This document shows, piece by piece, positions 24,033-25,131 of a stretch of 64,000 nucleotides of DNA. Source of the stretch: Erysipelotrichaceae bacterium (lineage in GTDB: Bacteria; Bacillota_I; Bacilli_A; Erysipelotrichales; Erysipelotrichaceae); contig JAFRCV010000013.1 in NCBI GenBank assembly GCA_017404205.1, positions 1 through 64,000 on the forward strand, written 5' to 3'. The position numbers were made by a program, and so were the translations under genes. The notes under the pieces were generated by a model, which ran no database searches, was not told the origin of the DNA, and was given only the letters and a program-made list of their open reading frames with translations. Within the stretch, counting starts at the first letter, position 1, and each line of letters begins with the position of its first letter.

Positions 24033-24114
24033 TTTCTTAATAGCACAACATGTTGTGTCTACTTTTACCCCCTAAAGTGTCTACTTTCTTAATAGCACAA
24101 CACATAGCACAACA
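24033..24114. repeat. Short direct repeats upstream of the EcsC-like gene
   Basis: TTTCTTAATAGCACAACA occurs twice, identically, at 24033-24050 and 24085-24102. A third partial copy (ATAGCACAACACA) begins at about 24104. Between them GTGTCTACTTT occurs twice (about 24055 and 24077). The pattern suits either a cluster of protein-binding sites or a solo end of an insertion sequence with repeated transposase sites. No transposase gene is nearby. Confidence 0.75.
24044..24057. promoter_or_regulatory. 14-bp perfect palindrome (candidate operator)
   Basis: CACAACATGTTGTG is a perfect dyad. Its half-site CACAACA is repeated at 24096-24102 and 24108-24114, just before the -35 box of the downstream gene. 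Confidence 0.5.
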
Positions 24115-24116
24115 CA

Positions 24117-24147
24117 TTGACAAACTCCGTCGGGGGGGGGGTAATAT
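24117..24147 (+). promoter_or_regulatory. Candidate phase-variable promoter with G10 spacer
   Basis: A consensus -35 TTGACA (24117-24122) and a -10-like TAATAT (24142-24147) are separated by 19 bp that include ten consecutive G (24132-24141). With 8 G the spacer would be the optimal 17 bp. A start near 24154 leaves a short leader carrying GGAGG (24160-24164) before the ATG. A ten-G run is unexpected in DNA this A/T-rich. Confidence 0.55.
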
Positions 24148-24171
24148 TTTCTTATAAATGGAGGCTTAAAC

Positions 24172-25131
24172 ATGGGCGATAATGGTATAAGAGAAAAAGT
24201 TGAAAACATTTTTGATACTATCGAAGAAAAAGCAAGAGACGCAGCTAAGTTGGTAGCTGATAAAACATTAGAAATAGCAGATGAGAATAAAGATGGAAAA
24301 ATTAATCTTATAGATTTCTTAATTAAAGCACTAAAAACAAAACCAATCAAAGTTGAAAGAGCTGAGTATTTAAGAAAGTCTTTTAAGAAATATTATGATG
24401 AAAGAACTATAGAAAAAGCTATAGAGACAACTCCAGCAAAGGCAAATATCAGTAAAGAAATTGTTGAAAGAATAGCACAAAACGCTATAGCACTAGAAAA
24501 AACTGTTGTTACGGTTTCATCTATTGGGCTTGGATATACACCAGGTGGTTTAGGAATTGATGCTGCAACTACGGTTGCAGATCTTGCCCAATATTATGGG
24601 CACATTTTAGTGGTAATGCAAAAGCTAATGTATTTATATGGCTATCCAGAATTAGAATTAGAGTCAGAAAACGGCAATATAGACGATGAAACTATGAATT
24701 TGATTATTATGGGTGTTGGAACTATGGCAGGAGTAAAAGAAGCCGCCAAGTTTATAAACATCATTGCTGAAAAATTAGCAATTAATGTGCCAAAACAGAT
24801 TCTTAAAAAAGGTTTCAGCACAAAAGTGGCATTCAAGGTAGTTAAAAAAGTATTAAATTATGTCGGCATTAAATTAACAAAAGATGTTGCTACAAAAGGT
24901 ATTGCCAATGCAATCAAATTTGTTGGTGGTGTTGCGATGGGAGGAATGACTTTTGCTGCTTTTAGCTCATCATGTGATAATTTTCATAAAGCTATAAAGG
25001 ATACACCATTGAGTGACTCAAATTATATCGCTAATTCAAATGCAATAGATGTCGATTTCAAAATAATAGAAGATGAATTAGAAAAAGAATTTGCTGATTT
25101 AAAAGATGAAGATATAGAAGAGAATGAATAA
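24172..25131 (+). CDS. EcsC-like protein with an EF-hand-type loop
   Basis: 319 aa. The N-terminal third is charged and helical and includes a calcium-loop match DENKDGKINLID (about 44-55; D1-N3-D5-G6-I8-D12 as in EF-hand/dockerin loops). The centre, GYTPGGLGIDAATTVADLAQYYGHI...YGYPEL, and the C-terminal part with alternating basic helices and a Gly-rich hydrophobic segment (FVGGVAMGGMTFAAF) resemble EcsC-family proteins. The end is acidic. The function of the family is unknown; the match is by eye. It is expressed from the G10 promoter and closed by its own terminator, so it is an isolated unit. Confidence 0.6.
   Translation: MGDNGIREKVENIFDTIEEKARDAAKLVADKTLEIADENKDGKINLIDFLIKALKTKPIKVERAEYLRKSFKKYYDERTIEKAIETTPAKANISKEIVERIAQNAIALEKTVVTVSSIGLGYTPGGLGIDAATTVADLAQYYGHILVVMQKLMYLYGYPELELESENGNIDDETMNLIIMGVGTMAGVKEAAKFINIIAEKLAINVPKQILKKGFSTKVAFKVVKKVLNYVGIKLTKDVATKGIANAIKFVGGVAMGGMTFAAFSSSCDNFHKAIKDTPLSDSNYIANSNAIDVDFKIIEDELEKEFADLKDEDIEENE

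Follow-up and report, generated by a model that had tools for sequence, protein, structure and literature searches.

A poly-G tract in the promoter spacer of an Erysipelotrichaceae gene, one of four candidate slippage-controlled promoters in the genome

Introduction

Most known examples of slippage-controlled promoters come from Gram-negative pathogens. In an Erysipelotrichaceae bacterium (GenBank assembly GCA_017404205.1), the first 64,000 nt of contig JAFRCV010000013.1, hereafter referred to as the window, contain a gene whose -35 and -10 hexamers are separated by a spacer ending in ten consecutive G. Here we ask what such a tract represents: a length-variable control element, a fixed recognition element, or the passenger of a promoter that has spread through the genome.

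Results

Reading the window sequence from the -35 hexamer into the start codon (24117-24174), we find TTGACA, AACTCCGTC, GGGGGGGGGG, TAATAT, GGAGG, and ATG, in that order (Table 1). The arrangement described in a previous sequence-only reading, a 19-bp spacer with ten G between TTGACA and TAATAT followed by GGAGG and ATG, is exact, and the order of -35, -10, ribosome binding site, and start codon bears out the placement of the tract within a promoter spacer.

Table 1. Features of the poly-G promoter and its gene in the window. G001 is a sister species.
Feature	Position	Strand	Remarks
-35 hexamer TTGACA	24117-24122	+	Also in the other three genome copies and in the G001 copy
Promoter spacer AACTCCGTC-G10, 19 bp	24123-24141	+	Left half kept among copies
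G10 homopolymer, candidate slippage tract	24132-24141	+	Sister copies G11, G11, G11; G001 copy G10
-10 hexamer TAATAT, directly abutting the G tract	24142-24147	+	
Conserved downstream block TTTCTTATAA, likely (predicted) transcription start region	24148-24157	+	Copy alignment
Ribosome binding site GGAGG	24160-24164	+	
Open frame, 319 aa, ATG at 24172	24172-25131	+	
Upstream repeats ATAGCACAACA at 24040, 24092, and 24104	24038-24114	+	Word also just upstream of two other copies

The G10 run is the sole G or C run of 7 nt or more in the window, where all remaining G runs are 5 nt or shorter, and the observed count was reached in 0 of 100 shuffles. From the base composition (30.4% GC and P(G|G) = 0.157 in the window), we expect about 0.001 such runs per window and about 0.03 per 1.62-Mb genome. 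The genome (23 contigs) contains four runs of 10-11 G, every one in the same promoter context. Chance or an assembly artifact as the origin of the tract is ruled out by the four copies with conserved flanks.

By searching the genome at the DNA level, we found three further copies of the promoter, giving four in total, each of about 40 bp. The copy alignment yields TTGACARAYTCYGTC-Gn-TAWTATTWWCTTATA as the sequence common to all four, and the left half of the spacer, AACTCYGTC, is kept throughout. The tract is G10 in the window and G11 at C8:21815, at C8:36926, and on contig C18 (minus strand); the distance from tract to start codon is 30-36 bp in every copy, with a ribosome site in between. 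Two more diverged copies of AACTCYGTC (2 mismatches) were found in the genome, at C9:55449 and C10:105392, both without a G tract.

The four promoters precede unrelated genes: the EcsC-like gene of the window, a DUF4190 gene (85 aa, E = 5.9e-9; membrane-like), a bPH_1 (bacterial PH-domain) gene (129 aa, E = 4.5e-37), and a gene for a RiPP-like peptide beside a radical-SAM enzyme. The last of these, on C18 (L007:3261-5008, minus strand), consists of a 39-aa Cys/Gly peptide, MNYKKPTIIAQNKAKGSFAAGCPSNYMGGTWCRQCDRAQ, followed by a 491-aa radical-SAM/SPASM protein. This pair looks like a candidate RiPP cluster and, with a G11 promoter ahead of it, may be a phase-variable one.

Four copies of one promoter could also mean that a shared constitutive promoter was spread by duplication or by a mobile repeat, with the tract as a mutation-prone passenger that has no useful effect. 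Its presence ahead of non-homologous genes would be expected in that case. The word ATARCACAACA, located just upstream in three of the set of four and at one other intergenic site, points the same way; it matches eight times in the genome, five of them at the poly-G promoters, and twice in the control. However, long G tracts should decay in AT-rich DNA absent selection, and a 1-bp change in spacer length is expected to alter sigma-A promoters. The design moreover recurs with unrelated spacers in many genera, mostly ahead of secreted proteins, and we therefore consider a spread constitutive promoter improbable. Separately, we note that another intergenic word, AATAGCACAACATRTTGTGTCTACTTTTA, is common to window positions 24038-24066 and contig C16:18978 (L173), constituting a small dispersed repeat.

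We compared tract lengths between relatives. No close ortholog of the window gene with a poly-G promoter was found, so the comparison rests on other copies. The 130 bases preceding homologs of the window gene (24-37% identity) contain no G-tract promoter, indicating that the window gene family does not conserve the tract. The bPH_1 ortholog in the sister species G001 (97.7% protein identity) is preceded by G10, compared to G11 here; otherwise the two sequences are the same from some 45 bp ahead of the -35 hexamer through the start codon. The surroundings of this promoter carry many substitutions on both flanks. ABC ATPase orthologs in G245 and G247 (79% identity) have an identical spacer, TTGACAAAAAATCGT, with tracts of G12 and G10. 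In the comparisons available, the tract thus evolves more quickly than the DNA around it. G231 and G234 encode related proteins (50% identity) whose promoters carry G8 and G11; these spacers are otherwise unlike. The expectation that tract length varies among relatives is thus borne out for the sister copy (G11/G10) and for the G245/G247 pair (G12/G10). The five copies in the species pair (this genome and G001) are all G10 or G11, a spread so small that constraint could also account for it.

To gauge how widespread the promoter is, we searched the order Erysipelotrichales with the pattern TTGAC-N4..16-G8+-N0..3-TANNNT. It matched 29 of 316 genomes, representing 16 genera, and the reversed pattern, which served as the control, matched once. 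Across the class, a looser pattern matched at least 50 of 395 genomes, with one control match; these class-wide figures are working numbers, based on a loose hexamer and on counts among the matches listed. The 125 sites parsed among the matches listed have tracts of 8-16 G and spacers of 14-24 bp (mean about 18, commonest 18-19 bp), and in 106 of these 125 the tract abuts the -10 hexamer. In three genomes (G533, G593, and G336), it adjoins the -35 hexamer instead. The window promoter therefore does not stand by itself: three more copies are dispersed in the genome, and promoters of this type recur across the class. A crude hydrophobicity rule, applied in the order to the 41 downstream proteins of at least 35 aa, classes 24 of them as apparently secreted or membrane-anchored.

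The C-tract form of the promoter is almost absent in order and class, occurring in two genomes of each, compared to 29 and at least 50 for G. The preference for G on the coding strand may reflect contact of sigma region 3 with G just upstream of the -10 hexamer or, alternatively, a leading-strand G bias.

CsoR/RcnR-type regulators bind G tracts, and the tract could accordingly be a fixed recognition element, either an operator of this type or a promoter feature for RNA polymerase, whose length changes are incidental. The strong strand preference, the abutment of the -10 hexamer at most of the listed sites, and the retention of AACTCYGTC among the four copies all fit this explanation. A fixed element is nevertheless difficult to reconcile with tracts that span 8-16 G, that differ by 1-2 G between orthologs, that lie in flanks unrelated between genera, and that in three genomes sit at the other end of the spacer. 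Operators of the CsoR/RcnR type are marked by inverted-repeat flanks and by metal or sulfur efflux genes; here, the flanks vary by genus, dyad symmetry is not evident, and most of the genes served encode surface proteins rather than metal exporters. We regard a fixed element as unlikely.

Three other genomes show further arrangements of these promoters. One contig of G640 (C6:8343-27066) carries poly-G promoters in seven near-identical copies (G8-G9), mostly at intervals of about 2 kb, which suggests an array of switchable paralogs. In G126, the promoter and the 24-aa N terminus are identical at L116 and L118 (G9 and G10) and the mature proteins differ, which we read as a likely exchange of promoter plus signal-peptide cassettes. 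The homologous promoters at L110 and L112 of G084 have tracts of G14 and G16, with spacers of 23-24 bp, the longest seen.

Besides the four promoters, the only runs of at least 8 G in the genome under study are two G9 runs, both in genes and both currently in frame. One lies in a TupA-like ATP-grasp gene (PF14305; L054:1816-2820, plus strand, contig C11), likely involved in envelope glycopolymer synthesis, and the other in an N6_N4 DNA methyltransferase gene (PF01555; L055:2063-2899, plus strand, contig C23). Slippage classically affects genes for cell-surface enzymes and methyltransferases, and a slip in the methyltransferase G9 would truncate the enzyme, making this gene a possible phasevarion switch.

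The product of the window gene is alpha-helical, with an EF-hand-like loop near its N terminus, and no signal peptide was seen. A profile search of the protein against Pfam and NCBIfam returned no significant family. EcsC (PF12787) matched three of six aligned family members weakly (best E = 6e-4), and the window protein, which has no match, lies below the gathering score of the family; the EF-hand model matched four of the six, also weakly. The EcsC-like label given to the gene by the sequence-only reading thus finds weak support among the homologs and none in the window protein itself, and the surface trait proposed for it is not evident from the protein, no signal peptide being seen. The structure model is all helical (mean pLDDT 67.5, pTM 0.73). 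With this model, Foldseek returned nothing significant from the PDB, and we therefore assign no function from it. The DUF4190 gene among the co-promoted genes and the targets in other genomes allow a guess at an envelope role. ABC-transporter genes lie downstream of the window gene, from 25190 on, and may be co-transcribed with it, so that the gene may or may not be the stand-alone unit of the earlier reading.

Discussion

The promoter architecture, the four-copy promoter family, and the length differences between orthologs are best explained, in our view with good confidence, by a slippage-controlled promoter of the porA type, one of a small set of four loci. We infer that slippage is the cause of the length differences, that it is reversible, and that it affects transcription. 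During replication, the G tract would gain or lose one or more G, and the distance from -35 to -10 would shift with it by 1 bp per G. The sigma-A RNA polymerase would then use the promoter more or less well, such that the EcsC-like gene would be expressed to different degrees among daughter cells. Four near-identical copies would make four unrelated genes independently adjustable, each probably turned up or down at random.

The direction of the effect is a point on which we depart from the earlier proposal that ten G gives a low state. A 19-bp spacer is ordinary here, 18-19 bp being usual among the matches listed, and in Neisseria porA promoter strength goes up with tract length, surface protein being high at 11G, 2-fold lower at 10G, and 13-fold lower at 9G (PMC3639595). 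For these reasons, we do not endorse that direction; ten G with a 19-bp spacer may be an on, intermediate, or low state.

The closest known system is porA of Neisseria meningitidis, where, as in opc and fetA and as here, a homopolymer lies between -35 and -10 (PMC3639595; PMC2791445). Tract length also differs between close relatives, as expected of a porA-type promoter, in the sister copy and in the G245/G247 pair. The length variants are similar to those of porA (about 9-11 G), and graded expression would be expected by analogy. Unlike porA, four near-identical promoters here serve four unrelated genes in one genome, in AT-rich gut Bacilli; the window product shows no clear sign of being a surface protein, and the expression effect is one that we infer. 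Replication slippage is also reported to switch a trait in a gut commensal, the pilus of Bifidobacterium breve, where two pilus clusters are affected (PMC9187656); the present case concerns a set of promoter spacers in a different phylum.

The slippage-promoter mechanism is already known. Our literature search found no earlier report of poly-G promoters in Erysipelotrichales, which is weak evidence as subscription journals were only partly covered. As far as the literature searched goes, the dispersed near-identical set, the strong recurrence in Erysipelotrichales and in other class members with small genomes, and the strand bias appear to be new. We tentatively suggest, with somewhat less than even confidence, that promoters with a poly-G spacer constitute a contingency system, so far undescribed and widespread among Erysipelotrichales and related small-genome Bacilli. 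In this system, dispersed near-identical copies would bet-hedge several unrelated traits of one genome, including RiPP production, and the strict use of G on the coding strand would imply a role for the tract beyond spacing.

If this is true class-wide, clonal populations of common gut commensals would be mixed in their surface proteins and peptide products. Tract lengths would be readable from existing metagenomes, and the promoter would offer a simple signature by which phase-variable genes could be recognized in lineages that resist culture.
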